Origin: a virus
IMG/VR virus record: IMGVR_UViG_3300038557_000026
Coordinates: 1-20,836 of that record
Strand: one strand, 5' to 3'
DNA: 20,836 bases
Numbering within the stretch: position 1 is the first letter of the stretch; every line of letters starts with the position of its first letter. The notes beneath the pieces are model-generated. The model worked only from the letters and a program-made list of their open reading frames with translations. It did not search any database and had not been told where the DNA came from. The position numbers were made by a program, and so were the translations under genes. Below are positions 1-20,836 of the stretch, in pieces.

Positions 1-127
1 GATGATGGTTCGGGAATGGCTAAGAGAAGGCGAAAATTCCACGGTGCACGCTGGACCGCCCAAGAAGATCGGGTGCTACGTCGCAACACAAATGCAACCG
101 CAGAATCGCTAGCGGCGATTCTCCATC
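1..127. repeat. Left copy of 127-bp terminal direct repeat (circle junction)
   Basis: These bases are identical to the last 127 bases of the window. An exact terminal overlap of this size is what a de Bruijn assembler with k near 127 leaves on a closed circle. I therefore read it as an assembly artefact marking circularity, not as a biological repeat. The copy contains the first 37 codons of the Myb-like gene. Confidence 0.93.
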
Positions 128-855
128 GGAGTATTGGAGCGGTTAAGCGAAGACGAGTGGGACACGGCGCCCATAGCTATACATCAAGCCCAGAAAGCCG
201 GAACGCCTCAGGCGCATTCAGGGTGTGGGCCTCTGCTGACCTGAGGTGGCTTCGCAAGCACAAAGACGATGAGTTAGGCGAGATGGCTGCCTATCTTGGA
301 CGGTCCGCAAAGGCTATTCGGTGCAAGCTGTTTAATATGGGCCTAGCAAGGCGAAGTACTCATCGCTCTGACTATTTTTGGTCGCCTCAGGAAGACGCTG
401 TTCTGCGGTCTTCTATGCAAGTTATGAACAAGGTTGTTGCTGAGCGCATAGGTAGGTCAGAGAAAGCGGTGGCTGACCGACGGAGTGTCTTAGGACTAAA
501 AAGGCGTCCTTTCGATCCGGATGCGTCCGTGGCTTACGCGCGCTGGACAGCTTCGGAAGATGATTTCGTGCGAGCCCACTCCGCTTGCGACGCCGCGGAA
601 ACAGCCGGTTATCTGTGCCGCTCAGCGACCGCAATTAAGCGTCGTTGCGTAGCATTGGGGATACGAAGGACATGGTGGCAGACAAAGCGAATGGCGCAGC
701 TACCTACAGCAAGACGCATTATAAAACTCCGCGAACAGGGACTTACCTACACCCAGATCTGGATCCGCATGGGAATCCCGCCGCGCAATTGTGCGGCTCT
801 AGTGCGATGGGCTCAAACCATCCCTGCATCCGTTTCGGCGAGCAGTAGACTTTGA
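16..855 (+). CDS. DNA-binding protein with four tandem Myb/SANT-like modules and a C-terminal HTH
   Basis: The 279-residue basic protein holds four repeats of one module. Each opens with a tryptophan-acidic signature and ends in a basic recognition-like helix: W13 (RWTAQED), W71 (WASAD), W122 (FWSPQED) and W177 (RWTASED), roughly residues 13-49, 71-110, 122-161 and 177-216. Each ends with a pattern like GRSxKAI followed by arginines and a GL/GI turn. Residues 231-266 (IIKLREQGLTYTQIWIRMGI) look like a separate helix-turn-helix. Single modules of this kind occur in bacterial and phage proteins, but a four-fold array is unusual. No membrane or catalytic segment is visible. On the closed circle the gene is divergent from parA, with the GCGCTAGC palindrome cluster between them, so it may act as a regulator or centromere factor; this is inference. 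The ribosome-binding site before the ATG is weak. Confidence 0.85.
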   Translation: MAKRRRKFHGARWTAQEDRVLRRNTNATAESLAAILHRSIGAVKRRRVGHGAHSYTSSPESRNASGAFRVWASADLRWLRKHKDDELGEMAAYLGRSAKAIRCKLFNMGLARRSTHRSDYFWSPQEDAVLRSSMQVMNKVVAERIGRSEKAVADRRSVLGLKRRPFDPDASVAYARWTASEDDFVRAHSACDAAETAGYLCRSATAIKRRCVALGIRRTWWQTKRMAQLPTARRIIKLREQGLTYTQIWIRMGIPPRNCAALVRWAQTIPASVSASSRL

Positions 856-861
856 AGCCAA

Positions 862-1182
862 ATGTTAGCGTGCTACGGACTCAGCATGCAGGGGGACGAC
901 AGCAGGCGAGAGAGCATACGGCGCTACGTGCGGTACACCGCCGTGGCGATGGCCATAGGCCAAGCGGTGTTCGGCGCAGCGCTACTTTACGGCTTGCATG
1001 CACCGGAGCCGACCATCCTCAAAATCGGCGCTTATGGCCTGATTGGGTGGGCACCCGTTGCGGCGCTTATGTCGTACTCCGAGATGAATGATCAATGGGG
1101 CGATGGTCGAGAGCTTTGGGCGAGCGTCAGTATGGGTTTGATCATGCTGACGCTCGGCTTCCTGGCGTGGTATCTCAGCTAA
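862..1182 (+). CDS. Small membrane protein, three predicted helices, unknown function
   Basis: The 106-residue product has a short polar, arginine-rich N-terminus and three hydrophobic stretches. These run from about residue 27 (AVAMAIGQAVFGAALLYGL), from about 52 (ILKIGAYGLIGWAPVAALM) and at the C-terminus (SMGLIMLTLGFLAWYLS). It should sit in the inner membrane. The start lies six bases after the Myb-like gene's stop, so the two are probably co-transcribed. An internal ATG at 886 (MQGDD) is an alternative start, and neither has a strong Shine-Dalgarno sequence. The stop codon overlaps the stop of the convergent 819-codon gene. I do not recognise the family. A holin-like or immunity role is possible but nothing specific supports it. 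Confidence 0.7.
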   Translation: MLACYGLSMQGDDSRRESIRRYVRYTAVAMAIGQAVFGAALLYGLHAPEPTILKIGAYGLIGWAPVAALMSYSEMNDQWGDGRELWASVSMGLIMLTLGFLAWYLS

Positions 1183-3638
1183 CGCATCGCGTTGCGCGAT
1201 TGATCTTCCTCAGGTGCCCGCATCGCGTTGCTTCCGCCTTGCCGTCCGTACGTGGCGCCGGCCGTCGAAGAGTAGGGGAGGGCGTTCCTTGGCGTCTGGC
1301 GCACTGCCTGATTAACGGCTCGGCGCGCGGAGACGGAACCGACGACTTTCGGCAGTCCGCTGTATTCGTAGATAGGCCGAGCCATCGGAACTGCATCGAG
1401 AAGCTTTCCGAAGAATTGCTTCGTGAGCGCCGCGGCCGTGTAACCCGACCCTGACGGATTCGGGTCCTTATAGGCGATGCGCTCGAGCTCACTGGCGAGG
1501 CGACGGATTTGCTTGATCTCGGCCGGTGAATACAACTCTTCCACGAGCGTCTTCTGGCTCGATAGCGAAGCCTTGATGTTGTTCAGCATGACCTGCGGAG
1601 TGTGGGGGCTACCCTTGTTGTTCTGCACAAGGCGCGCCCAATAGGCGACTTTGAGATCCCCGATGGTGTCGCTGGCAATGCGAGGATCCGCATATTTCTG
1701 CAATGCGGCTTTCATCGAGCGCAGAGCCTCGATCGCGCCGCTCTTGATCGTCGACGGGTTCTGAGCCGAGGCTGGGCCGAAGAGAATTTGCACGGCACGT
1801 TCTGGGCTGTCCGATGCTTCAAGTTCCTGCATGAGCTTTGCCGCCGGCGTGTTGCGACCCGTCACGCTCGGACTGAACAGGTTCTGCATGGTGCGCGTCG
1901 TGTCTCGTGCGATGCGAAGGTTCGCCGCGGCCGCGGGATCTCCGGCGAGTAGGGTTTGCTTCGCCGCATCGTCGATCCAATCGTTGAAGCCGTCATAGAT
2001 CGCCTTCGATGCCATCTGGTCTGTGGGATCGGCCGCGCTCTTGTACATGCCGAGCAACTGGCGCCGCATCTCGTCAACGGTCTTCACCGGTGACTGCTGA
2101 AGCACCTTCGCGACCGGATCGGCAAAGGCTTTTCCGCTCACGTACTCGTCGAGCGCTTTGGCCATTGCTGCGGCCTTCGGCATCTCCGAAGTTACGCGCA
2201 CGCCTCCGAGGCGGCCGGAGAGGGCATCGGGCAACAGGTCGAACGCTTCCTTTTTCGGAAGCAGATCCGTGACGGCATCCCAGGCCGCGGTTTCACCCGC
2301 TTCGGCCATATCTCGAGCATGGCGCATGCCGGCTTGAATGCCGGTTCCGAGGTCCGCGGCGTTGTCTGGCATTTGCTGGACGTGCGTAACCCCCGAAGGG
2401 TTCATCGTTCCGTTCTGAGCCGTGGCCTGCGAGCGAAAGTCGCTCGGCATGCGTGATCGAGCCGCGAAGTCGACGGCCTCGCTCTGCTTCGTATCGAAGG
2501 CCTGCATGGTGTCACGTGCCCGCTCGCCGTAGAGGTTGCGCCGCATCGCTTCCTCTTCCATGAGCTGCCACTTATCTTTCGATCGCTGTCCCGCTGTCGA
2601 CGGAATGCCGAACTCGCCCTCCTGCGCCTTGATCGCGGCCTGGCTGGCGTCACGCGTCTTGGCGTAGGTCTGCGCGAACGTCTTCGCGATGTCGGCCTGC
2701 ATGGCCTGCGGATCGAGGCCCTGAGACATGGCGAGGCGTTGCCCTTCAGGTGTGAGCTGCCCGGTCGATCGATTGAATAGGCGTGGCTCGATTACAAACC
2801 GGCCCCAGGCCTTACCGGCGAGGAATTCGAGCGGTACGCCAGCCGCGCCCGCGAGAGCGGCCAAGCCTGCCTTCGAAAGCTCGACGCCTTGCTCGCTGCC
2901 CATCGGCATCTGTGCAATGTCGCCGGCGATGCTGGTCGCGCCGGACGATGCGCCATAGGCCGCGAGACGGGAAATTCCGCGCGCACCCTTCATCGCGGCG
3001 CCTACGCCGGCGCCTCCGATCATGTACGGCATAGCGCCATAGATGCCGCGCGAGATGTCCTGGCTATCGAGACCCGGAGCATTCACATAGCCGCGCTGTT
3101 CCTGCCCATCGGCGCCACGCGTCACAAACACGTCGTAGCCGTTGGCGTCCTGCTCGCGACGAATAAGCTTGTCGCCTAGCTGCTTCGCGATGATGTCGCC
3201 CATCTGAGCGTCTGACGCGCCGAAGATGGCGGCGTTTGCAGTCGCGTTCCGAAGCTCTCCGGGGAACTGCTCGAATAGGGTCTTCGTGTCGGCTTCGCGC
3301 GGATCATGTCGGCCGCGGACGTCTTGCGCTCGCCGGCCCCACCATGTGTCTGCATCGGGCTCGGCGTAGGGGGATGGTGCATGCTCTCCCTCTGCCGAAG
3401 GCGCGCTGTTGCCGAATAGCAGGTCCTCGCCGTTGAGCGGGCTGTTATCCGCTCCGGCTTGCACGTTTTGGAGCGTCGCCGGCGATGCGTCATTGAAGAG
3501 CAAATCCATGCCGTCGAGGGCGCCATCGGCTGACGCCGGCGTAGGGGCGGGCGTCGGAGCGTTGCGCGCGGCCGCCTCATCAGCGAGACGGAAGCGCGAG
3601 ACGTGACGCAGGGGAGGGGCTTCGTTGAGCGGCATCAT
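1179..3638 (-). CDS. Phage DNA-ejection (internal virion / DNA-transfer) type protein
   Basis: This 819-residue product resembles large ejection proteins of podovirus-like phages, which leave the virion with the DNA and form a conduit across the envelope. The N-terminus is proline/alanine-rich and carries a duplicated motif, LDGMDLLF near residue 41 and LNGEDLLF near residue 68. Residues about 195-280 are Gly/Ala-rich and amphipathic, including a candidate membrane-active stretch (AMPYMIGGAGVGAAMKGA). The central segment GEFGIPSTAGQRSKDK followed by EEEAMRRNLYG is of a type I associate with phage ejection proteins. Its start overlaps the stop of the upstream gene in an ATGA arrangement, so the pair is translationally coupled. 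The frame is open over 2.4 kb, so the gene is not obviously decayed. Terminase, portal and capsid genes are absent. The family call rests on recognition, not a search. Confidence 0.68.
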   Translation of the reverse strand: MMPLNEAPPLRHVSRFRLADEAAARNAPTPAPTPASADGALDGMDLLFNDASPATLQNVQAGADNSPLNGEDLLFGNSAPSAEGEHAPSPYAEPDADTWWGRRAQDVRGRHDPREADTKTLFEQFPGELRNATANAAIFGASDAQMGDIIAKQLGDKLIRREQDANGYDVFVTRGADGQEQRGYVNAPGLDSQDISRGIYGAMPYMIGGAGVGAAMKGARGISRLAAYGASSGATSIAGDIAQMPMGSEQGVELSKAGLAALAGAAGVPLEFLAGKAWGRFVIEPRLFNRSTGQLTPEGQRLAMSQGLDPQAMQADIAKTFAQTYAKTRDASQAAIKAQEGEFGIPSTAGQRSKDKWQLMEEEAMRRNLYGERARDTMQAFDTKQSEAVDFAARSRMPSDFRSQATAQNGTMNPSGVTHVQQMPDNAADLGTGIQAGMRHARDMAEAGETAAWDAVTDLLPKKEAFDLLPDALSGRLGGVRVTSEMPKAAAMAKALDEYVSGKAFADPVAKVLQQSPVKTVDEMRRQLLGMYKSAADPTDQMASKAIYDGFNDWIDDAAKQTLLAGDPAAAANLRIARDTTRTMQNLFSPSVTGRNTPAAKLMQELEASDSPERAVQILFGPASAQNPSTIKSGAIEALRSMKAALQKYADPRIASDTIGDLKVAYWARLVQNNKGSPHTPQVMLNNIKASLSSQKTLVEELYSPAEIKQIRRLASELERIAYKDPNPSGSGYTAAALTKQFFGKLLDAVPMARPIYEYSGLPKVVGSVSARRAVNQAVRQTPRNALPYSSTAGATYGRQGGSNAMRAPEEDQSRNAMR

Positions 3639-5230
3639 GACTCGATTCCGAATTGTGCGCGCAGGCGCTGTTGAATGATAGGGACGAGCTCCTGACGGGG
3701 AACGCCGGGATTTGCTTTCATGACGTCGTTCTGGATCTTGTTCGTTTCCTGTTGAATGACGCGTGGCATGTCATCGAGCGGGATCTGCTTCGACATTTCA
3801 TCGACAGTGCCGTCGAAGCCGTTCTTCGTGAGGTAGCTGTAGCGAGCGAGTGCCATCTCAGTCAGCCGGATGTTGGTGTCCATCTTCGATTGGAACTCAG
3901 TCGGGCTGTCGCCGTCAAAGATGCCTTCACCGGGGTTCGGCTGCGTTTTCTTGATGCGATTGGCTTCGGGGATCGTCATCGCCGCGCCAGTGATTTCCTT
4001 GATGTACTGGTTCAGGTTGTTTAGCCCCTCGGCTCTGGATGCCGAATACGCAGCAAGCTCCTGTCGCTGCTGCGAGGTGAGGGACTTGCGCGTGCCTCCG
4101 AACTTGTCGACCAGACTGTTCCAGGCAAAGCCGAGCCGCTTGTCGATTGTCTGATATTCGGGCTTCCATGACTGCTTGATCGCCTTGAGGCGTGCATATT
4201 GCTCGACCGCGTTGAGCTGCTTTTCCTGCACTGCGTTAATGGTCGGCTTGGTCATGCTGCCGGTGGATGCCGCGTCGATCATCATCCGGCCAGCATCGCC
4301 TTTGCCGCGAAGAGCAAGGCCCATTCCGAGGCGTCGAGCTTGGTCGCGCGGCATTCGACCGAACGCCGTGTTCACGTTCTCGTCGCCCGGCAAATTGTAA
4401 GCCGCTCCCGGCGACGGACCGTCTGCGACAGGCGGCGCAGTCGGGTCAGGCCCTTCGCTATTCTGCGCGAGCACGATTCCGGGAGGTGTGCTCTGTGCGG
4501 GGTACGTGTCGGAGATCGGCTGCAAGCGCGGCTGTCCCGCATTGTCCGGCGCGTAGCTTTGCGGCTGGTACATTGCCGGCGGCTGTGTAGGCGCGGCCGG
4601 CGTGGCGCCGGAGCCGTCGATCATGCCACCGAGCGAACGGTTGAACGCATTTTCCGACTCGAGCTTTTCGACTTCCGCCTGCTGCTTGCGCCGATCGAGC
4701 AGATGGTCCTGTGCTGTCGCCATGAACAGCTCGGGACCGTTGACGCCATCGAGGAATTGAGCCGGCGCGTCGGCAAGGTCGGCATGTTGAGAGAAAATGT
4801 TGCGCATGATTTCGGTGCGCTTCGCCGGGTCCTTTTCCGTTAGGGCGTACTTTTCAACCAATGGGGCGATCAAGCCCACCTGTGCTTGGAAGCGCTTCGC
4901 GCGCCGGTCCTTTTCGTCCTGTTCGAACCTCCGACGATCGCGATCGTCCATCGCGTTCTGCCGGCCACGATTGTACGTCGTCTCGTCGGCATATCTCGTG
5001 TCGGCCAGAGTATCCCGTCCGCGGCTGTAGGCGCGTTCGTCCGCATAGCGCTGGTCAACCATTGCATTACGGCCGCGCTGGTACTGACGTTCCTCTGCGC
5101 GCTCAGCGCGGGTTTGATCCAACTCTCGCCTACGGCCTATCGCGTCGATGCCTTCGTTGAGACCTGAGAAACTGAGCATAGCGTTCTCGGGCACGCGATA
5201 CGCGGGCAGGGGGATGTATCCAGATGCCAT
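3635..5230 (-). CDS. Phage ejection-type structural protein with tandem RGR/RYADE repeats
   Basis: The 531-residue product begins at an ATG with GTGAGG six bases upstream; a GTG four codons earlier is possible but less well placed. Residues about 50-101 form three tandem copies of an 18-residue charged unit (YQRGRNAMVDQRYADER, AYSRGRDTLADTRYADET, then TYNRGRQNAMDD). This unit should form a long helix or coiled coil. The middle (about 205-290) is proline/glutamine-rich and likely disordered. The C-terminal half is mostly helical and soluble. Such repeat-helix proteins stand next to the large ejection protein in podovirus virion modules. It ends inside the start codon of the 819-residue gene and follows the 102-residue gene by nine bases. 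I infer that the two long products worked together as a DNA-injection pair. A tail or scaffold component is the alternative. Confidence 0.65.
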   Translation of the reverse strand: MASGYIPLPAYRVPENAMLSFSGLNEGIDAIGRRRELDQTRAERAEERQYQRGRNAMVDQRYADERAYSRGRDTLADTRYADETTYNRGRQNAMDDRDRRRFEQDEKDRRAKRFQAQVGLIAPLVEKYALTEKDPAKRTEIMRNIFSQHADLADAPAQFLDGVNGPELFMATAQDHLLDRRKQQAEVEKLESENAFNRSLGGMIDGSGATPAAPTQPPAMYQPQSYAPDNAGQPRLQPISDTYPAQSTPPGIVLAQNSEGPDPTAPPVADGPSPGAAYNLPGDENVNTAFGRMPRDQARRLGMGLALRGKGDAGRMMIDAASTGSMTKPTINAVQEKQLNAVEQYARLKAIKQSWKPEYQTIDKRLGFAWNSLVDKFGGTRKSLTSQQRQELAAYSASRAEGLNNLNQYIKEITGAAMTIPEANRIKKTQPNPGEGIFDGDSPTEFQSKMDTNIRLTEMALARYSYLTKNGFDGTVDEMSKQIPLDDMPRVIQQETNKIQNDVMKANPGVPRQELVPIIQQRLRAQFGIES

Positions 5231-5238
5231 AACCGGCC

Positions 5239-5547
5239 TCACTGCTTCGAGTTGATATGGACCTGCGCCAGCAGGCGGTAGGGGTGCGGATGCGCGACGA
5301 TCACGTGTCGGTCATGCGGCGAGAGGGCATGGAAAAACACGATCGCGCTGTTGATCACCGCGTCTCCGAAGTCTCGTCTAGCGAGCGCTTCGGAGAGATT
5401 GAGCTTGTCCATCATTGCGTGCACGAGTTCGACGCCATCGATCAGCTTGGCGAATTCGGCGTCGTTCGCACGCGTCGGCTGAGCCTCTGCCTCAGCGAGG
5501 AGGAGCTGCCAAAACTCGCCGATCGGTTCGCTGTTTTCATCGCTCAT
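5239..5547 (-). CDS. Hypothetical 102-residue protein in phage-like operon
   Basis: The chosen start (MSDENSEPIG) has a GAGG eight bases upstream; a start 17 codons earlier would run into the preceding gene. The product is acidic at the N-terminus and mainly helical (EFWQLLLAEAEAQ, AEFAKLIDGVELVHAMMDKLNL). Its C-terminal part is histidine-rich (FHALSPHDRHVIVAHPHPYRLL), which might bind metal or form a small beta unit. I do not recognise the family. It sits between the frameshifted SSB-tailed gene and the ejection-type genes, so it marks the junction between the replication-like block and the virion-like block. If structural genes were deleted from an ancestral phage, this boundary is where the deletion would lie. 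Confidence 0.72.
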   Translation of the reverse strand: MSDENSEPIGEFWQLLLAEAEAQPTRANDAEFAKLIDGVELVHAMMDKLNLSEALARRDFGDAVINSAIVFFHALSPHDRHVIVAHPHPYRLLAQVHINSKQ

Positions 5548-5557: not shown

Positions 5558-5871
5558 TCAGAAAGGAATTTCGGCGTCATCCGCGCCGGCGGAGACATGC
5601 GACTGCATCAGCGCACGCGATCGCTCCCCGTCACGTGGACGCTCGGCGTCGGCCTTCCTCGCCTTGCCCTGGTCTCCGTTGCGGGGAGGGGCTGCCGCGA
5701 TCACCAGGTTCCAAATCGATGGCCCTCAGCATCGGCGTCCTTGGACTTCAGAAGCGTGAGCTTCATCGATCCGAAAAAGCCGGTGATGTACTGATTGCCC
5801 TGCGCCGAGGTGCGCTCGTACAACTTGCCGACAGTGACGGACGGCGGGAATTCATTGCGGCGGTCAGACAT
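5558..5871 (-). pseudogene. Frameshifted small ssDNA-binding-like protein with SSB-type acidic tail
   Basis: The ATG (MSDRRNEFPPSV) has AAAGGA nine bases upstream. It opens a 56-codon frame, with KLYERTSAQGNQYITGFFGS, that stops at a TGA at 5701-5703. Shifting back one base just before that stop, at the GAGGGCC run near 5717-5723, opens a second frame. That frame continues with PSIWNLVIAAAPPRNG, a charged linker and the end DDAEIPF. Joined at that point, the product is about 104 residues and reads as one coherent protein. The DDxxIPF tip is the hallmark of bacterial single-stranded DNA-binding proteins, which recruit partners through it. No standard slippery heptamer is visible, so I read this as a one-base deletion or a homopolymer sequencing error; programmed frameshifting is less likely. 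The start overlaps the zinc-ribbon gene's end, and the downstream gene begins 11 bases after the stop. Confidence 0.7.
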
Positions 5872-6124
5872 GGGTCGAGATCCTTTCGGGTGCGGAAGGG
5901 GTCAAATTTGCGCGCTGGCGGCGATTCACACCCCCGGCCGCGGCACCGGTAGCCGCGCGGCGGCTTTCGCGCTCCTGACGGTCGCGAGCAGCGTTCGCGA
6001 ACACGCAAGGCTTGCAGCGATCCGTCAAACCGTCGTCAGACAAGGCCGACGGCAGGAAGCTGGCGGCCGGCCGGACCTGCTCGCACTGGCGGCAGGTTTT
6101 CGAGCCGGGGAGGGCGCTACACAT
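5864..6124 (-). CDS. Small zinc-ribbon protein (CxxC…CxxC)
   Basis: The 86-residue product has two cysteine pairs, C11-R-Q-C14 and C37-K-P-C40. They enclose a segment ending in DGLTDR, in the pattern of a short zinc ribbon (TCRQCEQVRPAASF … DGLTDRCKPC). The pattern is common in small phage and plasmid proteins and is also found beside HNH-type domains, but no HNH nuclease residues follow here. The C-terminal half is rich in Arg and Ala and probably disordered or DNA-contacting. Its start overlaps the end of the upstream gene by eight bases, and its end overlaps the start of the SSB-tailed gene, so all three should be translated in series. A DNA- or RNA-binding accessory of the replication block is the likeliest role, by inference. 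Confidence 0.72.
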   Translation of the reverse strand: MCSALPGSKTCRQCEQVRPAASFLPSALSDDGLTDRCKPCVFANAARDRQERESRRAATGAAAGGVNRRQRANLTPSAPERISTHV

Positions 6125-6530
6125 TGGCCGCCTCCCGTGTCGTGAACTTTGACTGCTCGAACCACGGCTTCCCAGGTTCGGAGCCGGGCGAGCGTCGAAG
6201 CGAGATCAGTCGCGAGCCGGATGCACAGCGCACCACGGCGCGCGCGGCTTCGATCGCCTCGAGCTTCGGTCCCGACAGCGAAGACAGCGCCAGACCGGTC
6301 ACGAGGCCCTGTTCGGCATAGCGATACTCGGGGGCGATCGGGGCTGCGCCGAACAACTCGGCATCGTCCCATCCGAGATCGATCGCCGTCGCGAAGTGCG
6401 GGCTGTCGAGGAAGGCGCGTGTCACGAGCTCGAGGCGCTTACGCTGCCGGTCCTTGCAAGGGGGCAGGGCAGCGAGGCGGGCGAGCACCTGGTCTCGGCG
6501 CGCGAGGATGTCTTGCGGGGCGACGGTCAT
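6117..6530 (-). CDS. Hypothetical 137-residue protein in phage-like replication operon
   Basis: The start ATG overlaps the stop of the replisome-organiser-like gene (ATGA), and a GAGGG lies about eight bases upstream. The N-terminal half is helical and charged, with PPCKDRQRKRLELVTRAFL. The centre contains DLGWDDAELFG and EYRYAEQGLVTGLALS, and the tail is basic (LISLRRSPGSEPGK). The DLGWDDAELFG segment resembles the small helical proteins that accompany replication or nuclease genes in alphaproteobacterial phages, but I cannot name a family. There is no signal peptide or membrane segment. Tight coupling on both sides suggests it is needed in fixed proportion to its neighbours. Confidence 0.72.
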   Translation of the reverse strand: MTVAPQDILARRDQVLARLAALPPCKDRQRKRLELVTRAFLDSPHFATAIDLGWDDAELFGAAPIAPEYRYAEQGLVTGLALSSLSGPKLEAIEAARAVVRCASGSRLISLRRSPGSEPGKPWFEQSKFTTREAANV

Positions 6531-7675: not shown

Positions 7676-7987
7676 TCACGCGGCGATGTCCTCGCCAGCG
7701 GTGAGCATAAGGACGTCATCATCGGCCCGAGGAGCGGATCGCTGATCCTGCTGCCACTGCGCAAGATCGCGCGCGGACCATGCCACTTTGGAGCGCGACA
7801 AGGGGATTGGCCTCGGAAATTGGCCGCGTCCGATCCGTGCGTAAATTGCAGTCTTGCCTAGGGTGGTGATGCGCTTGACGTCGTCGAGCGAAAGGAACCG
7901 ATCAAGCTCGGGTGCTGCCGCTATTGCTTCGGGCACCATGCGCGGGAAGGCGCGGCGCTCATCTTGAGACAGTGCTTCGGCGTGCAT
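7676..7987 (-). CDS. AlpA-like small helix-turn-helix regulator
   Basis: The start (MHAEALSQDE) has an excellent CGGAGG six bases upstream, which selects it over an earlier in-frame codon. The 103-residue protein contains an AlpA/MerR-type winged helix at about residues 30-80. It reads LSLDDVKRITTLGKTAIYAR, then GRGQFPRPIPLSRSKVAW and SARDLAQWQ, with the usual order of recognition helix, wing and closing helix. AlpA-family proteins are small activators or excisionase-like factors of phages and mobile islands. The C-terminal tail is acidic (ADDDVLMLTAGED). It is separated from the upstream gene by an inverted repeat and from the replication protein by the candidate antisense RNA. It may therefore switch the downstream half of the phage-like block. 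Confidence 0.85.
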   Translation of the reverse strand: MHAEALSQDERRAFPRMVPEAIAAAPELDRFLSLDDVKRITTLGKTAIYARIGRGQFPRPIPLSRSKVAWSARDLAQWQQDQRSAPRADDDVLMLTAGEDIAA

Positions 7988-8040
7988 TGGCCACCTCCGT
8001 TGAGAGATGGCGAGACGTTGCCGAAGCAGAACCACCGCGA

Positions 8041-8922: not shown

Positions 8923-10347
8923 CTACCCCCTATCCGTAAAGAGCGTGCGCGGGCCGTCGAAGGCCAGTTCCACAGATCCGACTGGGCCGTGCCGATGTTT
9001 TGCGATGATGACTTCGGCCATCCCTGCTGAGCGGTCCATGCGCTGCTCCCACGCGTCGATATCGACCTGCTTGGCGTCTGCCTGGGGCTTCTCTTGCTCG
9101 GCGTAATACTCGTCGCGGTAGCAGAACATCACGACGTCCGCGTCCTGCTCTATCGAGCCGGACTCTCTAAGGTCCGAAAGCTGAGGGCGCTTGTCGTCGC
9201 GCTCTTCGACTTTGCGCGAGAGCTGAGACAAGGCCAGAACGGGCACATTCAATTCCTTAGCGAGCGACTTAAGCCCGGTCGTGATGTCGGTTAGCTCTTG
9301 GACGCGGTTCGAACCGTTGCCTCTGCGGGTAGCTCCCATCAGCTGCAGATAGTCGACGACAATCAGGCCGAGCGCCTTGGCCCGCACAAGCCGACGCGCT
9401 TTAGTTGCTAGTTGAGGAAGTGTGAGCCCGCCGGTGTCATCGATATGCAATTGCACCCGTCCAGACCGGAACGTGTCGCGAGTTGTCATGAGACTGCGCA
9501 TCTCGGCTTCCGAGAACGTGCCCCGTCGCTGTGTGTCAGAACTGATGCCCGTTTCTCCCGCTAGGATCCGCGCAGCGACTTGAGCACGAGACATTTCGAG
9601 CGAGAAAAAGCCGACGCTCTGACCACTTTTAGCGACGTTGGCGGCTATCGTCGTCGCGAGCGCCGTTTTGCCCATCCCCGGCCGACCGCCAAGAATGATC
9701 ATGTCGGAAGGCGCTAGACCGCCGGTTTTTGCGTCCAGACCGACGATCCCGGTTGATAGTCCTGCCAATCCCGCGCCGCTCATGCGAGAGAGGTTCGCGA
9801 GGTCGATCGCCTCATCCATCGCATCGGCTACAACTATCGCTTCGCGTTCGTTCCGTTCTTTAAGGCGCAGCGCGTCGAGCTGCATTTCAGCTTGGTCAAT
9901 TTGCTGCAAAGGAGGGAAGTCGACGGGGGCGCTGTAGGCCGACGTGATCATTTCTGCGGCGATGCTGATAATGCGACGGCGCGTGAAGTAGTCGTAAACC
10001 GTCCTCGCATAGTCCTTGGCATTGGCTACGGTAGTGGCACTCACGGCCAGCGAGCCGAGATACTGCGGAACGGTCAGTCGGCCGTTTTCGATCGGCGGGT
10101 AGTCCTCGAATTGAGCCTTCAAGGTTACGGGCGTCGCTGTGCGACCGCTGCGTATTGTGGCCTCGATCGCCGTAAAGATCGCGCCGTGTAACTCGTCATA
10201 GAAATGCTCTGCTGAGACCAGAGCTGAGACGGCATGAAATGCCGAATTGCGCTCGCTCACGAGTATCGCACCTAACAAGCCCTGCTCGGCGTCGATGTTG
10301 TGGGGAAGCTCTTCGTATGCCGCTGGCGGCCTGATGTGCTCGTTCAT
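8923..10347 (-). CDS. dnaB: Replicative DNA helicase, DnaB family
   Basis: The ATG (MNEHIRPPAAYEELPHNIDA) follows GGGAGG at nine bases and gives a 474-residue protein, the normal size for DnaB; the longer upstream frame is out of place. The N-terminal domain begins with the typical PHNIDAEQGLLGAIL. The RecA-like motor has Walker A GRPGMGKT at residues 221-228 and Walker B in LGLIVVDYLQLM. Further DnaB motifs are LSQLSRKVEERDDKRPQLSD, the sensor-like DLRESGSIEQDADVVMF, and the closing IIAKHRHGPVGSVELAF. The hexamer unwinds DNA ahead of the fork and calls primase. Phages and phage-plasmids often carry their own copy. It leads the leftward phage-like block and is coupled to the 281-residue gene. 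Confidence 0.96.
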   Translation of the reverse strand: MNEHIRPPAAYEELPHNIDAEQGLLGAILVSERNSAFHAVSALVSAEHFYDELHGAIFTAIEATIRSGRTATPVTLKAQFEDYPPIENGRLTVPQYLGSLAVSATTVANAKDYARTVYDYFTRRRIISIAAEMITSAYSAPVDFPPLQQIDQAEMQLDALRLKERNEREAIVVADAMDEAIDLANLSRMSGAGLAGLSTGIVGLDAKTGGLAPSDMIILGGRPGMGKTALATTIAANVAKSGQSVGFFSLEMSRAQVAARILAGETGISSDTQRRGTFSEAEMRSLMTTRDTFRSGRVQLHIDDTGGLTLPQLATKARRLVRAKALGLIVVDYLQLMGATRRGNGSNRVQELTDITTGLKSLAKELNVPVLALSQLSRKVEERDDKRPQLSDLRESGSIEQDADVVMFCYRDEYYAEQEKPQADAKQVDIDAWEQRMDRSAGMAEVIIAKHRHGPVGSVELAFDGPRTLFTDRG

Positions 10348-10541
10348 TGCTATGCGCCTCCCGGCGCGATCCACTGAGATCACGGCACGGGGCGGGGCGG
10401 GTGGATGACCGCCGTTCGGGGGCGACCCTAGCCCCGTGCGTGAATCAGCCCTGGCCCTGTTCGAGCCAGTGCGCAACGCCAGAGCGCGGCATGGATTCGC
10501 TTCATGAGGTGTTTCCCCGCATTCCACAGGGCGCGGCCGAA

Positions 10542-11945: not shown

Positions 11946-12554
11946 TCAGCGACCCTTGCCGAACAGCTCGCCCCTGTTCTTGTTCGCCTCGCGCCACGCG
12001 TGGCACTTCACCTTGATCCATCCGCGGTTCTTGCCGCTGACGTAGGGCTGATCCGATCTCTTCGACACGATGCCCTCTAGCTGGCGTTCGTCGAGCGCGG
12101 CGAGCAGTTTCATGGGGTCGGGGAACGTGTCCGACATGCGCAGCACCTCGTCGCCGGCTTTCTTCAGGAGCGCAGCCAGGCGCACGCGGCGAGTGAGCAG
12201 AGGGAATGCGCGCATGTCGCGGCCGTCGATCTCGAGCAAATCGAAGCACCACGCAACGCGGCTGTGCTTCTGCCCACCGACAAGCGCGCGAAAGTCGGGC
12301 CTGCCTTCGGCATCGAGCGCGACGCCCTCGGCGTCGACGATGCAGGTCTTACACGGGAGAGCAGCGACGGCCTTGGCGAGATCGCGGAATCGGGCGGTGA
12401 AGTCCTTCCCGTTCTTCGACCAGATCAAGCCGCGATCGCCGTCCTTGTGGAGCTGCAGGCGATAGCCGTCGAATTTGACCTCGTGCAGCCATCCCTTGCC
12501 GGATGGCGGCAACGATTGTTCTACGGGCTCTGACGGGGGGATGAACGCGGACAC
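11946..12554 (-). CDS. ATP-dependent DNA ligase adenylation domain, LigD-like, stand-alone
   Basis: The 202-residue product contains the nucleotidyltransferase core of LigD-type ligases. Motif I is K27-FDG with R32, so K27 should carry the AMP. An acidic site lies in IVDAEGVALD (E77), motif III is FDLLEID at about 104-110, motif IV EGIVSKR at 160-166 and motif V WIKVKC at 179-184. The protein ends soon after motif V, so the OB-fold domain that normally clamps DNA is missing. The frame shows no damage, and ligase fragments of this size are known in alphaproteobacterial genomes and plasmids. It probably seals or adenylates nicks in repair or replication. The start is a GTG without a good ribosome site and overlaps the preceding gene by 34 bases, which suggests coupling. 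Confidence 0.88.
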   Translation of the reverse strand: MSAFIPPSEPVEQSLPPSGKGWLHEVKFDGYRLQLHKDGDRGLIWSKNGKDFTARFRDLAKAVAALPCKTCIVDAEGVALDAEGRPDFRALVGGQKHSRVAWCFDLLEIDGRDMRAFPLLTRRVRLAALLKKAGDEVLRMSDTFPDPMKLLAALDERQLEGIVSKRSDQPYVSGKNRGWIKVKCHAWREANKNRGELFGKGR

Positions 12555-13250: not shown

Positions 13251-13817
13251 CTAGCGAGCGAATACCAAACTATGTATCGGAGTCCCCGGGGGGATCTTCG
13301 GCTCGCTCATAGCATCGATCATACCGACGTCCTTCGCCCAAGTTGCGTCTTTGGTCCTGGCTTCCTTGAACAACTCAACGACATCCGCTTCTTGCAAAGT
13401 CGTGTGTTGCCCGATGACGGAACCGATCCGACGGTGGTCTGAGCCGATCGAATCCAGGTGTTCGCGAAGGCTCTGGTCAACAAGGCGGACCCCACCCGTC
13501 ACGTCCAATCCTACACCGTGGAACATGAAGGTCGCGTTCGGGCACGCATACCGTTCCTTCCCCGCTAGAAATATGACGTTTCCGATCGAATCCACGTTGC
13601 CCATGTTGTAGGTGGCCAACTGCAATGGGAGCGCTCGGAGCGTGTTGTAAATTGTGAAACCGTGCATCACCGAGCCACCCGGCGTCGACAGCATCAGGTG
13701 AACTTTCGTGGCTCCCTGATTACAGAGCTGTGCCATCACAGCGATGAGGTTTTCAGTGGTCGCCGGGTTTATCTCTGCCGAGAATGAGAGATAGTGTTCT
13801 TGAGACGGGGTCGTCAT
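13251..13817 (-). CDS. ClpP-like serine peptidase, orphan
   Basis: The start (MTTPSQEHYL) has GGAG five bases upstream. The 188-residue product keeps the ClpP/crotonase fold signatures: VHLMLSTPGGSVMHGFTIYN for the oxyanion strand and turn, S77 in NVDSIGNVIF as nucleophile, H100 in ATFMFHGVG, and a candidate aspartate D157 in TKDATW before DVGMID. It is close to the size of ClpP, and only a short N-terminal extension is present. ClpP needs an AAA+ unfoldase, and none is encoded here. It could borrow a host ClpX/ClpA, work alone on small proteins as SppA-type peptidases do, or process a plasmid or phage protein. It follows repA in the same direction by 34 bases, so RepA or the DinJ antitoxin are reasonable candidate substrates by inference. 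Confidence 0.85.
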   Translation of the reverse strand: MTTPSQEHYLSFSAEINPATTENLIAVMAQLCNQGATKVHLMLSTPGGSVMHGFTIYNTLRALPLQLATYNMGNVDSIGNVIFLAGKERYACPNATFMFHGVGLDVTGGVRLVDQSLREHLDSIGSDHRRIGSVIGQHTTLQEADVVELFKEARTKDATWAKDVGMIDAMSEPKIPPGTPIHSLVFAR

Positions 13818-13851
13818 GAGCACTCCGTTCAACGCTGGCTGGTAAGGCACT

Positions 13852-16035: not shown

Positions 16036-16311
16036 TCAGAATAAATCGCTGTGGCTCCCCAGCCTGATTAGGCGCAGCGTGTGATCGTCGGGCCGCTCGT
16101 AGAGTAACACCAAGTCTGGCTTTAGATGGCAGTCCCGGATGCCGGCGGCGTTGGTCAACTCGTGGTCTTTGTAACTGGTCGGAAGCGGCCTGTCGTTTAG
16201 TAGTAATTCAAGCGCATCGGTCAATAGCTTATCCAGCGTCTGCGAGCCCAATGACTTTGCGATGCGCTTGAAGTCCTTTTTGAATTTGCTCGAGCGTTCA
16301 ATCGTCCGCAT
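16036..16311 (-). CDS. yafQ: YafQ-family mRNA endonuclease toxin
   Basis: The 91-residue product keeps the layout of YafQ of the RelE superfamily: a helical N-terminus (SSKFKKDFKRIAKSLGSQ), H50 in YKDHEL, H62 and D66 in CHLKPDL, and R83, H87 and F91 in the closing RLGSHSDLF. In the E. coli protein the matching residues (H50, H63, D67, H87 and the final aromatic) are needed for ribosome-dependent mRNA cleavage. The tryptophan that normally follows the aspartate is Leu here, a small deviation. The start overlaps the end of the antitoxin gene by 14 bases, the usual coupling in this system. Its role is plasmid maintenance by killing or arresting cured cells. Confidence 0.93.
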   Translation of the reverse strand: MRTIERSSKFKKDFKRIAKSLGSQTLDKLLTDALELLLNDRPLPTSYKDHELTNAAGIRDCHLKPDLVLLYERPDDHTLRLIRLGSHSDLF

Positions 16312-16567
16312 GCAGGTCGGCCATCAGTGCGGCGGCTGTAGCGAACCGCTCCGTGCCGCCCTGAGTGCGAGCCTCCTTGATTGCCGTGAGCGTGTCAGCG
16401 TTCGGCTGCAGAAGCTCGAACGGCAGACGCTTTTCGGCAGCGGTGCGAACCATCAAGAGGCGGAAGGCGGACGACGGTGTAAGGCCGATCTGGCTAAGAA
16501 CGGCTTCAGCCTCGGCCTTCACATCCTCTTCGATCCTGGCTCGGACAACAGCGTTCATTGCGGGCAT
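16298..16567 (-). CDS. dinJ: RelB/DinJ-family antitoxin
   Basis: The start (MPAMNAVVRARIEEDVKAEA) is set by AAGGAG eight bases upstream; a longer in-frame start would overlap the promoter. The 89-residue protein has the RelB/DinJ ribbon-helix-helix N-terminus (VVRARIEEDVKAEAEAVLSQ then GLTPSSAFRLLMVRTAAEK) and a flexible acidic C-terminal half that would wrap the toxin. It neutralises YafQ and, with it, represses their shared promoter. It is first in the pair and is preceded by a consensus-like promoter with a palindrome across the -10. Like other antitoxins it should be degraded by host proteases such as Lon or ClpP complexes. Confidence 0.93.
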   Translation of the reverse strand: MPAMNAVVRARIEEDVKAEAEAVLSQIGLTPSSAFRLLMVRTAAEKRLPFELLQPNADTLTAIKEARTQGGTERFATAAALMADLHADD

Positions 16568-16585
16568 GTCTCGGTCTCCTTCTGG

Positions 16586-16618
16586 GCTACAATGTAGCTC
16601 ACTAATGGAGATCGTCAA
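16586..16618 (-). promoter_or_regulatory. Promoter and operator of the dinJ-yafQ pair
   Basis: On the leftward strand TTGACG (16618-16613) and TACATT (16596-16591) are 16 bases apart. The palindrome GCTACATTGTAGC (16598-16586) lies across the -10, six bases on each side of one central base. That is where DinJ or the DinJ-YafQ complex would shut the promoter off. The antitoxin start is 19 bases further on. Confidence 0.75.
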
Positions 16619-16830: not shown

Positions 16831-16950
16831 ACACAAAACCTGTTGATCCCGGCAACACAGCAATGATACACATTTGGAGTAAACATACACGTTTGAGTCT
16901 GTGAGGTTGCGTCGTCATGCTTCTCCTGCGTCCCCTTCCCCCAACAACTC

Positions 16951-16987
16951 GCGCCGGTCGTCGCTCTGCGGGCCGGCGCTTTCTTTT
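16951..16987 (+). terminator. Rho-independent terminator ahead of the rightward operon
   Basis: GCGCCGG at 16951-16957 pairs with CCGGCGC at 16973-16979 and is followed by TTTCTTTT, the same tail as the terminator near 7650. No rightward gene precedes it, so it may end a short leader RNA or act as an attenuator for the operon at 17028. It also argues against starting that operon's first gene at 16917. Confidence 0.7.
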
Positions 16988-17027
16988 GATCGAGACCCGA
17001 AAGGCAAAGCCCGTCGTCTCTCGCTAC

Positions 17028-17438
17028 ATGGTCGATGACGATTCCCCGGAGACGCGTAAGCCGATAGCGTTCTTCCTCCGCAAAGCGCGGTTCACATGGG
17101 ATGACCTCGAATTCCGCGACGTGCGTCGCGTGGTGTCGGCTGCTCAAGCCGCAACGTGGGCTTTGGGCGATTGCCCAGCCGAGGACGAAAGCGACGAGTA
17201 CCGGCAAGCGCAGGCGCGCTATCGCGATGCGTGGGAGGAATGCGAGATGGTCGCTTCCCACGTGTTCACGCCTGGAGCGGAGACGACGCGCGATCTCTTC
17301 CTGCGCGCCGAGATGCTGACCATGCATTACGGCGACGGTCAGGTGTCAGAGCTGACGGAGAGCGCGTTTCCCGGCCATCGGATGCTCGGCGCCCTGCTGC
17401 TGGCGATGTGGAAAGTCGGAGGTGCTGCCAATGTCTAA
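17028..17438 (+). CDS. Hypothetical protein, cytoplasmic relative of the next gene
   Basis: Starting at MVDDDSPETRKPIAFFLRKA, the 136-residue product is acidic and helical. I prefer this ATG because an upstream one would read through a strong terminator, though no Shine-Dalgarno is present and the longer form cannot be excluded. The segment ETTRDLFLRAEMLTMHYGDG followed by KVGG at the end lines up with TSMRDIALRAEALRQFFFGG and VSGGG in the next gene, so the two look like diverged duplicates. This one lacks the Tat leader. The function is unknown. Its stop overlaps the next start by eight bases. Confidence 0.72.
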   Translation: MVDDDSPETRKPIAFFLRKARFTWDDLEFRDVRRVVSAAQAATWALGDCPAEDESDEYRQAQARYRDAWEECEMVASHVFTPGAETTRDLFLRAEMLTMHYGDGQVSELTESAFPGHRMLGALLLAMWKVGGAANV

Positions 17439-17874
17439 GCTCTCACGCCGATCCATCCTGCAGGGCGTCGCCGGCGCGGCCGTCGTTGTGCCGATCGCGG
17501 CCGACGCTTCCCCTCATCCTTCGGCGTTCCCTCTTACGCATGACGCGGATCTCGAGCTGCTCGAGCTGCGGCGCGCGATCGACGCCTATCAAGCCTCTGT
17601 GCGGTTCGAAATGAGCATCGAGGGCACGCCGGGCCATGCTGCGGCCGTGGCTGAAAGTGATGCCCGTGAGGCCATCGTAGAGGCGCTGGTTGAAGCCATT
17701 CACGAGCGCACGCCTACCTCGATGCGCGACATTGCCCTAAGAGCTGAAGCGCTCCGGCAATTCTTTTTCGGCGGCCATCAGGAGTGCATCGACGAGTGGA
17801 CCGACGGCGGGGATTACGCCTTCGCCAAGCTCTATGAGGCAGCCGTGATCGTCTCGGGAGGTGGCGATGTCTGA
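17431..17874 (+). CDS. Tat-exported small protein of an uncharacterised rhizobial-type family
   Basis: The ATG follows GGAGG at eight bases. The N-terminus MSKLSRRSILQGVAGAAVVV is a textbook twin-arginine signal (SRRSILQG), with a likely cut after ADA near residue 28. The folded protein would therefore be moved to the periplasm by Tat. The mature part is about 120 residues, helical and acidic, with HERTPTSMRDIALRAEAL as its most distinctive stretch. I recall proteins of this kind as frequent and uncharacterised in alphaproteobacteria; no catalytic residues stand out. It overlaps the preceding gene and is overlapped by the next, so the four genes form one rightward operon. A Tat-exported product on a small plasmid is unexpected, as Tat is usually used for cofactor-bearing or pre-folded enzymes. 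Confidence 0.85.
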   Translation: MSKLSRRSILQGVAGAAVVVPIAADASPHPSAFPLTHDADLELLELRRAIDAYQASVRFEMSIEGTPGHAAAVAESDAREAIVEALVEAIHERTPTSMRDIALRAEALRQFFFGGHQECIDEWTDGGDYAFAKLYEAAVIVSGGGDV

Positions 17875-18483: not shown

Positions 18484-19581
18484 CTAGGCCGCGAGTGCGG
18501 CACCCCGGACAACCATGTCTTTGCCTTCGGGCTCGACCTCGAGGCCGATCGCGTCGACGATCGTTCGCAGATGCTTCCCGAGGTCGGCTGCCGGCAGGGG
18601 GGTGATGTCGCGAGCCTCGCACCATTCCGGATATTGCCCGTAGAGACGGCGCAGCGATGCGCTGCCTTCCGGATCTGGCCTCAGCACGGCACGAAGAAAC
18701 GCCGCGACGTGCTCCTGATCGTCCGGCCGCGGCAGAGCCTTTAGAGCAGGCTTTGGTTGCGCCTTGCGGAGCATGACAGGCGCCGGCGCGGTCTCTGACT
18801 GTTTCGGCGCTGTATTATCAGACTGTGCCGTGTCCAACTTCCTATGAGGATGCAGGGCGAGCGCGACGGCGATCGAGCCCCCGACGACTGCAAGCGAGCG
18901 CAGGGCAGCCATAACCAAATCCCAGGCCCAGGGTGCGAAGCCGAGACGCGTGGGCAGCGGCGACGCGTTGCGCGGGATCGGAAGGGCGGCCAGTGCGGTT
19001 TCCGCTGCCTTCAGCTCTACGTCGGCCTCCGATCGCGCAGCGTCGACGCGGGCGCGTGCCTCACGCAATTCGGATTCGGCGCGGTCCTTCGCGTCCTTCA
19101 GGAGGTCGACGCAGTTTTTCCGGCAACCGGGCTTGGCTGCTTCGGAGACGGCCGCGGCGTCTGCCGCCTGCTTTGCCTTCAGCGCATCGCTCACGCGAGC
19201 CTGCGCCCGCTCTCCGGCCGTTGCGAGGGCTGCCCTCGCCTCTTCGACGCGCTTCTCTGCTGCTGCGTACTTCACGGAGGCATCACGCAGCGGAGCGGCG
19301 AGCTCGTCGCGCTTCGCGATTTCCCTCTCGGCATTCGTGAGCAGCCAGTACACCTCACCCGACACGAGGCACAGACCGAGCAGGACGGCGCCGATCTTAT
19401 GCCCCTCCCCCCACGCAATCGCGCAGTAGCCGGCGCCCAGTGCGAGCAGAACGGCAATCGTGATAACGAGCCACGAGTCACTCGTCTCATAGCCGCCGGC
19501 GTGAAGCACGTTGGCGTGAGTTGCAGCAGCGATCACGGCGACGCCGGCGAGAACGGCAAGTGTTCTCCAAACGTAGATCAT
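18484..19581 (-). CDS. Membrane protein with coiled coil and C-terminal winged-helix-like domain
   Basis: The start (MIYVWRTLAVLAGVAVIAAA) overlaps the RHH gene's stop (ATGA), and a GAGGG lies upstream. The 365-residue product has three N-terminal hydrophobic segments: TLAVLAGVAVIAAAT, WLVITIAVLLALGAGYCAIA and IGAVLLGLCLVSGEVYWLL. A long charged coiled coil follows (about 85-205, with a central C-R-K-N-C), then a fourth membrane segment (LRSLAVVGGSIAVALAL). The cytoplasmic tail ends in LYGQYPEWCEARDITPLP, a stretch resembling winged-helix tails of phage primase-helicases. As third gene of the par operon it may anchor or position the partition complex. The order parA, RHH, membrane protein is notable. 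It could also be a phage-type lysis or exclusion protein; I consider that less likely. Confidence 0.75.
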   Translation of the reverse strand: MIYVWRTLAVLAGVAVIAAATHANVLHAGGYETSDSWLVITIAVLLALGAGYCAIAWGEGHKIGAVLLGLCLVSGEVYWLLTNAEREIAKRDELAAPLRDASVKYAAAEKRVEEARAALATAGERAQARVSDALKAKQAADAAAVSEAAKPGCRKNCVDLLKDAKDRAESELREARARVDAARSEADVELKAAETALAALPIPRNASPLPTRLGFAPWAWDLVMAALRSLAVVGGSIAVALALHPHRKLDTAQSDNTAPKQSETAPAPVMLRKAQPKPALKALPRPDDQEHVAAFLRAVLRPDPEGSASLRRLYGQYPEWCEARDITPLPAADLGKHLRTIVDAIGLEVEPEGKDMVVRGAALAA

Positions 19582-19898
19582 GCCCCTACCCTCACTTTCT
19601 CGGCCTTCGCGAGCGCGGCGATCGCCGCAATCACGATGTCGGCCTGAGACCACTTCCCGTTGCCGTCACGATCGGCGGCATTGAACCGGTCGATGAGCGC
19701 CTGCGTCAGAGCTTTCGTGTCGTCGTCGACGCGCACATTGAACTGATGCGGCCGCGTGACCTGGCGCTGCCGGCGTTTGTCGCCCTTCTTGAGAGCCGCC
19801 ATGCGCTCGGCGCGCGCACGCTTCTGCGTGTTCGCATGCGTTCCGAAACCGCCAAGCAATGCAGCAAACTCGCTGCCGTCATCCGCGAGCTCAGACAT
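19578..19898 (-). CDS. RHH-type centromere-binding protein candidate (ParB/ParG-like)
   Basis: The 106-residue protein has a basic, flexible N-terminal half (KRARAERMAALKKGDKRRQ). A segment fitting the strand and two helices of a ribbon-helix-helix dimer follows (HQFNVRVDDDTKALTQALID, then GKWSQADIVIAAIAALAKAE). In type Ib partition systems the partner of a short ParA is just such a small basic RHH protein, which binds the centromere and stimulates the ATPase through its flexible tail. Its start overlaps the end of parA by eight bases, as in those operons. The likely target is the GCGCTAGC cluster upstream of parA. It has no similarity I can see to classical ParB with its HTH and CTPase parts. 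Confidence 0.82.
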   Translation of the reverse strand: MSELADDGSEFAALLGGFGTHANTQKRARAERMAALKKGDKRRQRQVTRPHQFNVRVDDDTKALTQALIDRFNAADRDGNGKWSQADIVIAAIAALAKAEKVRVGA

Positions 19899-20535
19899 TG
19901 GCCTTTGCTCCCTTCCGGACCTTCGCGAGAATGGCTTTCACCTCGGCCCATAGCGCGGAGATTTCCTCCTTTGCGGTGCCCGTCTTGTCGATCTCGGGAC
20001 CGGTCTTTCCTGCCGTCATCGCGCCCAGGTAGGCCGCGCGGTGTGTGACGATTGCTTTGGCAACAGGCACCTTGTTGACAGTCAGGTACTTGCTAGCCGC
20101 TTCCGTCGTCTTCCAGCGCGGCTCGGCATCGTTGATCACGCAAAGGTGCGCCACGTTCGCCTCGCGGGCCATCAGCACCGCATCCTCGCTGGCGAGAATG
20201 TCGAGAGCGCTAGCGCGCAACGGGATCACCACGAGGTCAGCCGATTGTATAGCGTCCTCTATCAGGGCCAGGAACGCCGGCGGTGTGTCGACCAACAGAA
20301 GGTCGTACTGCTCCTCGTCGATTTCTTCCAAGGCCTGGCTCGCTTTTTCGATGTTTTCGAGGACCGCCAGGTCATCACCTCCCCTGCGATCAAGCCAGCC
20401 TTCGAGTGAACCCTGAGGGTCCAGATCGACTAGCGCTACACGCTTCCCGTCACTCGCAGCGGCAACAGCTAGCGCGCTAGTGAGGGTGGTTTTGCCAACG
20501 CCGCCCTTGCTTGAAACGATTGATATAACTTGCAT
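19891..20535 (-). CDS. parA: ParA-type partition ATPase (type Ib)
   Basis: The start (MQVISIVSSKGGVGKTTLTS) has GAGG five bases upstream; a longer frame would reach into the operator. The 214-residue protein carries the deviant Walker A KGGVGKTT with signature lysine K10 and catalytic K15, then VALVDLDPQGS (switch I/A') and LLLVDTPPAF (Walker B). There is no N-terminal HTH, so it is the short type Ib form, which does not itself bind the promoter. ATP-bound dimers bind the nucleoid and pull plasmid copies apart. It is the first gene of a leftward operon with the RHH protein and the membrane protein. Its promoter contains a GCTAGC palindrome between the -35 and -10, so the RHH protein or the Myb-array protein probably represses it. 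Confidence 0.93.
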   Translation of the reverse strand: MQVISIVSSKGGVGKTTLTSALAVAAASDGKRVALVDLDPQGSLEGWLDRRGGDDLAVLENIEKASQALEEIDEEQYDLLLVDTPPAFLALIEDAIQSADLVVIPLRASALDILASEDAVLMAREANVAHLCVINDAEPRWKTTEAASKYLTVNKVPVAKAIVTHRAAYLGAMTAGKTGPEIDKTGTAKEEISALWAEVKAILAKVRKGAKANV

Positions 20536-20578
20536 TTCGTCCTCAAAGGTATAGCGGAATAGCTGTATGTATAGCGCC

Positions 20579-20608
20579 ATTGTAGCATGAGGCTAGCGCT
20601 AGCGTCTA
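20579..20608 (-). promoter_or_regulatory. Candidate parA promoter with palindromic operator in the spacer
   Basis: On the leftward strand TAGACG (20608-20603) and TACAAT (20584-20579) are 18 bases apart. GCTAGCGCTAGC fills 20603-20592, inside the spacer and touching the -35. A protein bound there would block polymerase. Confidence 0.55.
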
Positions 20609-20709: not shown

Positions 20710-20836
20710 GATGATGGTTCGGGAATGGCTAAGAGAAGGCGAAAATTCCACGGTGCACGCTGGACCGCCCAAGAAGATCGGGTGCTACGTCGCAACACAA
20801 ATGCAACCGCAGAATCGCTAGCGGCGATTCTCCATC
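20710..20836. repeat. Right copy of 127-bp terminal direct repeat
   Basis: These bases repeat the first 127 of the window without a mismatch, and include a second copy of the start of the Myb-like gene from 20725. Removing them closes a 20,709-bp circle. The copy should not be annotated as a separate gene. Confidence 0.93.

Follow-up and report, generated by a model that had tools for sequence, protein, structure and literature searches.

A coupled pair of podovirus ejection-type genes on a capsid-less circular element and its relatives, a probable variant of phage satellites

The window, that is, the whole stretch of DNA that was analyzed, is a record of 20,836 bases with an exact terminal repeat of 127 bp, which makes it a closed circle of 20,709 bp. 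The features of the window are given below; L014, L015, L016, and G367 denote related elements.

1–127: terminal repeat, identical to 20710–20836, which closes the circle
862–1182, plus strand: small membrane protein with two hydrophobic segments, convergent with the 819-residue gene
1179–3638, minus strand: putative gp16-type ejection protein, 819 aa; 36% identity to UOF81817 and 73–75% to capsid-less relatives
3635–5242, minus strand: putative gp20-type ejection protein, 535 aa from GTG at 5242 or 531 aa from ATG at 5230
5599–6116, minus strand: two small ORFs 5' of the pair, one zinc-finger-like and a second (SDRRNEF...) that is frameshifted in the window
6117–6530, minus strand: 137-aa protein of unknown function, 90% identity in the sister element L014
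6527–7573, minus strand: replication initiation/primosomal protein, 348 aa (PHROGs 9327 and 270)
7676–8035, minus strand: AlpA-family regulator (Phage_AlpA 1.4e-10), present also in the G367 and L016 elements
8923–10527, minus strand: DnaB-type replicative helicase (DnaB_C 2e-93), 78% in L014
10863–11552, plus strand: serine recombinase/resolvase (Resolvase 3e-25), 89% in L014 and 56% in L015
13852–15000, minus strand: plasmid RepA (RepA_C 6e-17)
16036–16618, minus strand: RelBE-type toxin-antitoxin pair; antitoxin from Pfam (RelB 6e-18), probable toxin from position and sequence read
16917–17438 and 17422–17874, plus strand: two adjoining small proteins, one with an RR-type leader, kept in L014 and G367
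18484–19653, minus strand: membrane protein of ~390 aa, which accompanies ParA in four capsid-less elements
19891–20580, minus strand: ParA partition protein (AAA_31 1e-19; phrog_164 8e-44)

The genes for the DnaB helicase, the AlpA regulator, the initiator, and the putative ejection pair form a single leftward block from 10,527 to 1,179, with the helicase gene at the head and the pair last. The 819- and 535-residue frames are free of stop codons, and their stop and start codons overlap as ATGA, which is the usual mark of translational coupling. As a control for chance, 200 dinucleotide-Markov sequences with the length and composition of the window were used. The longest stop-free frame in these sequences is 592 codons, and the mean maximum is 297 codons. 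The 819-residue frame is therefore beyond chance. The 535-residue frame is not beyond chance by length alone, and both frames are regarded as genes because of their homology and dN/dS values. The description of the pair in the earlier note as intact, coupled, and without internal stops is borne out by the stop-free frames and the overlap.

One match to the 819-residue protein was obtained among 50,697 phage records, in the podovirus MW202785 (32% identity, 89% coverage, E 2e-86). The matching protein, UOF81817, stands at the gp16 position of this phage, and the 535-residue protein is 33% identical to UOF81818, the product of the preceding gene. In the 40-kb genome of MW202785 the two genes are found after the gp10-type stabilization and tail-fiber genes and before the tail spike gene, a cassette of the P22 type. 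P22 (AF217253) has the order 7-20-16, in which gene 20 abuts gene 16, and the environmental relatives of the pair have the gene order of MW202785. The gp20-type protein has 112 relatives in IMG/VR; direct single-sequence scans of IMG/VR with the 819-residue and RepA proteins gave no match.

Profile comparison with P22 gp16 provided a marginal similarity in the C-terminal part only (E 0.0018, probability 15%), and comparison with P22 gp20 provided none. The AlphaFold models of the two proteins are mostly helical and of moderate confidence (pLDDT 72 and 68), and they match unnamed Caudovirales (tailed-phage) proteins in a viral structure library. A structure search of the PDB (Foldseek, VIA) returned only generic helical matches, none of them reliable, a result that excludes no family. 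In sequence searches of the PDB, the gp16 profile had no match, and the matches of the gp20 profile were discarded as low-complexity human proteins. The podovirus ejection identity proposed in the earlier note is thus supported, as a sequence-based assignment, by family membership and by synteny in P22-type environmental phages, whereas the similarity to P22 itself is marginal for gp16 and absent for gp20. The comparison with known ejection proteins that had been recommended turned out weak, the P22 gp16 profile similarity being its one positive result and the PDB supplying no match. Because of this, the name ejection protein rests on family and synteny.

No terminase, portal, coat, connector, or tail protein was found on the circle in Pfam and PHROGs searches of its major proteins, so the statement that nothing else for a virion is present has held up. 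The circle is without the terminase, portal, and coat genes of its own by which a tailed phage or phage-plasmid is defined, and it has the RepA_C protein, the ParA protein, and the 127-bp closing repeat that mark a plasmid. The closest plasmid relatives of RepA are from Acetobacteraceae (Roseomonas, Acetobacter; up to 54%). A packaging signal, a small terminase, or a capsid-redirecting gene was not recognized with Pfam or PHROGs, which divergent examples among the unknown proteins could escape. The capsid and packaging genes that characterize cfPICI are absent from the circle in the same searches, and the matches include no psu, sid, or related capsid-sizing family of P4-like satellites. PADLOC models gave 0 matches and no defense family among the unknown proteins scanned.

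Further proteins of the circle are listed here as side observations. A ClpP-fold protease (13251–13850, minus strand) lies directly downstream of repA with no head gene nearby; it resembles head maturation proteases and is the sole particle-like match of the circle, has a strong Pfam CLP_protease match too, and was not seen in the related elements. A DNA-binding-type protein of 279 aa (16–855, plus strand) matches the PHROGs family "transcriptional regulator, D5-like" (2.7e-21) and is absent from the other elements. A lone adenylation domain of an ATP-dependent DNA ligase (202 aa) is encoded at 11946–12554 on the minus strand, and the L015 contig contains a related fragment that is not part of the ejection block. 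One of the two adjoining small proteins has a relative in L016 too, and for the protein at 17422–17874 neither the phage nor the plasmid collection gave a match. The membrane protein of ~390 aa has a possible winged-helix end; no accepted family match, no plasmid match, and no match in the IMG/VR scan were obtained for it.

The pair, or its large partner, was found on at least five further elements without recognizable portal, coat, or terminase genes. A contig scan of genomes yielded three of these relatives (L014, L015, and L016). The sister of the circle is L014 (18.3 kb), in which the ejection proteins are 73% and 50% identical, the resolvase 89%, DnaB 78%, and ParA 78%, with the order kept. 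It is the sole element with an additional gp7-like gene (phrog_4287 "DNA ejection protein", E 1e-4). The gp16, ParA, RepA, AlpA, and ~390-aa membrane proteins are common to L016 (17 kb) and the circle; gp16, ParA, the ~390-aa membrane protein, and the resolvase are common to L015 (27.5 kb) and the circle, and L015 has no recognizable gp20. With profiles built from the phage group, no gp10, gp4, portal, coat, or terminase was detected in L014, L015, or L016. Since these three contigs are not closed, the absence of capsid genes from them is provisional, and it is certain only for the circle and for the att-bounded G367 island.

The G367 island was found by searching 397 genomes of the order to which the L015 host belongs. 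The pair is on the chromosome in this case, within an island of 18.9 kb at the 3' end of tRNA-Phe, with an 18-bp direct repeat marking its boundaries. An integrase lies beside the tRNA. Among the island proteins that were scanned are two integrases, an initiator, and a helicase, and none is a particle protein. In congeners, e.g., G328 and G458, no insert is present at this site, and the left flank runs straight into the tRNA. The search for the pair on other capsid-less circles that had been recommended has thus yielded further elements, one of them with defined ends. The L016 host (G005) contains a second element that is split over two contigs with a perfect overlap of 126 bp. On this second element (L160, G005:C288, 1–5000) a different protein type occupies the gp20 position before gp16, which suggests that the middle ejection gene is replaceable by another type.

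The hosts of L015 (labeled Hyphomicrobiales), L016, and G367 belong to one bacterial family; L014 is in a Burkholderiales bin, and the binning of plasmids is unsure. An assembly artifact is unlikely, as the block recurs in unrelated assemblies. Three candidate capsid-less loci (G006, L070, and L072) were rejected and moved to the virion group since they have major head proteins of other families, and a match in G379 was left out as a short gp16 fragment without the cassette. A DUF5681-like motif, a possible terminase neighbor, was seen in L016 only. The L015 element also has a 271-aa ORF (L026:15330–16145, minus strand) that is tail-fiber-like by eye and has no Pfam or PHROGs match; should it be a true tail-fiber gene, the lineage would have a second particle protein.

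A maximum-likelihood tree was calculated for 22 gp16-type proteins. A single clade (support 99/97) unites the proteins of the window, L014, G367, and L016, and the best tree adds L015 to this clade with weaker support (61/91). The remaining 17 proteins are from phage-type loci, for most of which the contig also carries virion genes, and a few entries (e.g., G043 and L095) were labeled as virion-encoded without a check of the contig for virion genes. In the gp20 tree (57 rows), the window, L014, and G367 form one clade with a support of 100. The capsid-less copies are on deep branches, apart from the virion-encoded ones. The dN/dS ratios were calculated by the Nei-Gojobori method for the three closest elements, and with dS values of about 1.2–1.4, near saturation, the ratios are rough: 0.13–0.18 for gp16, 0.22–0.35 for gp20, 0.15 for ParA, and 0.08 for DnaB. 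The values for one further protein (prot17) were left out because its reading frame was wrong. The N-terminal third of gp20 in the window is of a type different from that in L014 and G367, and the C-terminal part is conserved. Both genes are thus under purifying selection, and the pair has been maintained in functional form on capsid-less elements over a long time. The earlier note had stated that homologues found only with capsid modules, together with relaxed selection on the present copies, would speak against its proposal; the homologues found here include those on capsid-less elements, and selection on both genes is not relaxed.

These data bear directly on the alternative that the circle is the remnant of a phage or phage-plasmid without its head and tail genes, in which the pair survives by chance or briefly. 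The pair is phage-derived, the backbone has phage-like replication genes, and both the gp7-like gene of L014 and one neighbor are missing from the window. In the small SDRRNEF... ORF beside the pair (5599–5890, minus strand), one base is missing in comparison with the intact ORFs of L014 and G367; this is either a true pseudogene or a sequencing error. Independent recent losses would scatter the capsid-less copies among the phage copies, and the separate deep clades of both genes therefore argue against a remnant, as do the low dN/dS ratios and the intact, precisely bounded G367 island. A recent loss of the structural module, one of the two possibilities raised initially, is contradicted by the deep capsid-less clade and by its recurrence in independent elements, one of them cleanly bounded by att repeats. 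The remnant explanation is quite unlikely overall and, in the form of a recent loss, largely refuted; if the loss was ancient and the pair then took on a new role, the explanation is no longer distinct from the reading of the elements as satellites. That an old capsid-less lineage which keeps the pair exists is held with much greater confidence than the satellite mechanism described below.

The best reading of the pair, with a probability of roughly 0.55, is that the elements are phage satellites that load their own ejection proteins into the particles of a helper podovirus of the P22 type. In a cell in which such a helper is multiplying, the element would use its own initiator and helicase to replicate. 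The ejection pair stands at the end of the leftward block; its products would be synthesized during this phase and incorporated into the helper particles, and the helper would package the DNA of the element. Particles carrying the element would then deliver this DNA via the element's own conduit, and rival injections may be excluded by the small membrane protein encoded next to the pair, in the manner of P22 SieA. Of the two alternatives offered in the earlier note, an injection apparatus for a helper's particle is the better fit.

Published hybrids of P22 are informative with respect to this reading. Normal or near-normal yields of working phage were obtained from P22 with all three foreign ejection proteins of distant relatives, and normal or near-normal yields were also obtained with Sf6 gp16 and gp20 in combination with P22 gp7; a single foreign gp16 or gp20 leads to non-infectious particles, and a foreign gp7 alone is fine (PMC10883804). 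From these results, a conduit of its own in a foreign particle would require of an element a matched gp20 and gp16, and not gp7. The combination of gp20 and gp16 without gp7 is the content of the window and of G367, and L014 adds its gp7-like gene. The family of the pair occurs with several unrelated head types in phages, which argues that the pair is an exchangeable module.

The AlpA regulator and the replication block of the elements are, by analogy, the control logic of known satellites. In the PICMI satellites, AlpA is a key activator, no terS or capsid-remodeling gene is present, and concatemers fill the full-size head of the helper (PMC10803314). Phage Kapi1, which the source calls closely related to P22, mobilizes a PICI (PMC11773190). 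At 41.4 kb, two units of the circle would about fill a head made for the genomes of MW202785 and MW202691, which measure 40.0–40.5 kb; this is suggestive arithmetic only.

Possible helpers are present, in that P22-type portals were found in 11 of the 103 genomes of the host family. Contigs with such portals are in the bins that hold L014 and L015, each of which has a single gp16-type gene, located on the capsid-less element. This arrangement would also be expected if the circle were one segment of a two-part phage with the capsid genes on another replicon. The bins are incomplete, however, and many podovirus gp16 proteins escape the profile. Moreover, no P22-type portal was found in G367 or in the L016 host (G005), and the elements have their own RepA and ParA or an integrase, for which a dependent segment has no need. 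A split genome is very unlikely on these grounds.

The other alternative to a helper particle in the earlier note, a different envelope-crossing job such as the passage of DNA or protein from cell to cell through a conduit that needs no phage particle, has a basis in the periplasmic channel that ejection proteins form after release from the virion (PMC10883804). Pfam recognized no relaxase or conjugation gene on the circle either, and the transfer of the element would need another route for this reason. Nothing on the circle, however, resembles a substitute delivery device, and we know of no ejection conduit that acts without a virion delivering it from outside. Such a role is scarcely probable.

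The position of the small membrane protein (862–1182) can be compared with that of sieA in P22, which is located at 36811–37305, directly after gene 16 and on the opposite strand. SieA is an inner membrane protein that blocks conduits made of gp16 and gp20 (PMC10883804). In the window, in L014 and L016, and in the second element from the L016 host, a small protein with two hydrophobic segments matches sieA in location and orientation; some phage relatives have a shorter small protein there. The likeness to SieA is one of position, with no sequence homology shown, and suggests by analogy that the elements may control injection into their host. As a tentative extension, put at clearly less than even odds, the family may seize the injection step alone: the head and tail of the helper would be borrowed, the conduit would be replaced by the element's own matched pair, the accessible recipients would change (for example, to cells guarded by a SieA-type protein), and the element's own host would be guarded by the SieA-like protein.

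The same gene could also be part of an interference function, in which the pair poisons or blocks phages, either by being mixed into the virions of an invader or together with the membrane protein at the inner membrane, and the element is a defense island. Satellites often protect their hosts, and the membrane protein at the sieA position would suit such a function. The non-infectious P22 particles that result from a mismatched gp16 or gp20 are a precedent for poisoning (PMC10883804). The two genes, however, are coupled, kept together, and conserved over the greater part of their length, which would be expected of a working conduit and is not needed by a poison. The PADLOC result also offers no support for a defense island. 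Interference as the main function is unlikely, and it is compatible with the reading of the elements as satellites rather than exclusive of it.

In comparison with known systems, the pair is like the P22-type ejection module (gp7, gp20, gp16; AF217253, MW202785) in the gp20-gp16 order, the overlapping or touching ends, the late position, the convergent small membrane gene beside gp16 (cf. sieA), and the sequence homology to MW202785-type proteins. Unlike P22-type phages, the elements are without capsid, portal, terminase, gp10, and tail spike, and a gp7-like gene is present in one relative only; there is also no clear sequence match to the gp20 of P22 itself. The elements are like the PICI (e.g., EcCIMP1, mobilized by Kapi1) in their small size, AlpA-family regulator, replication block, G367 integrase, and absence of capsid genes. 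The AlpA-type regulator with a replication block is present in the window, G367, and L016; the PICI combination of integrase and att repeat is present in G367, and the circle has a serine recombinase and RepA instead. Unlike the PICI, the elements have no recognized small terminase or packaging-redirection gene, have RepA and ParA (in the window), and carry ejection genes.

The Vibrio PICMI are similar in having AlpA, replication, and excision genes and no terS or capsid-remodeling genes, but they are about 6 kb in size, and the accessible part of the source reports no ejection or other virion genes for them. The cfPICI and MulchRoom/MiniFlayer are also satellites that encode part of their own particle; they encode head and packaging genes and borrow tails, whereas the present lineage has no head and encodes injection proteins only. 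The satellite phage-plasmids from cryoconite (group 8, Bellas et al. 2015) are likewise small, circular, and capsid-less with replication or integration genes, but their replication is of the P4-like primase/polymerase type, and the text that was searched mentions no ejection genes. In the literature covered, which was partial, no satellite with ejection proteins alone is described.

The capsid-less lineage is probably a variant of phage satellites with the injection pair as its distinguishing content. Known satellites act by redirecting packaging, by reducing the size of the head, or by supplying heads of their own. If the reading given here is true, the entry step too would be a target of piracy, by a satellite that brings injection proteins only, and this would explain how a capsid-less element could choose its recipients. 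The coupled gp20-gp16 pair without gp10, portal, and coat provides a signature that can be searched for among sequences filed as plasmids or incomplete viruses. The elements constitute an evolutionary experiment on ejection proteins that have been freed from their source phage.
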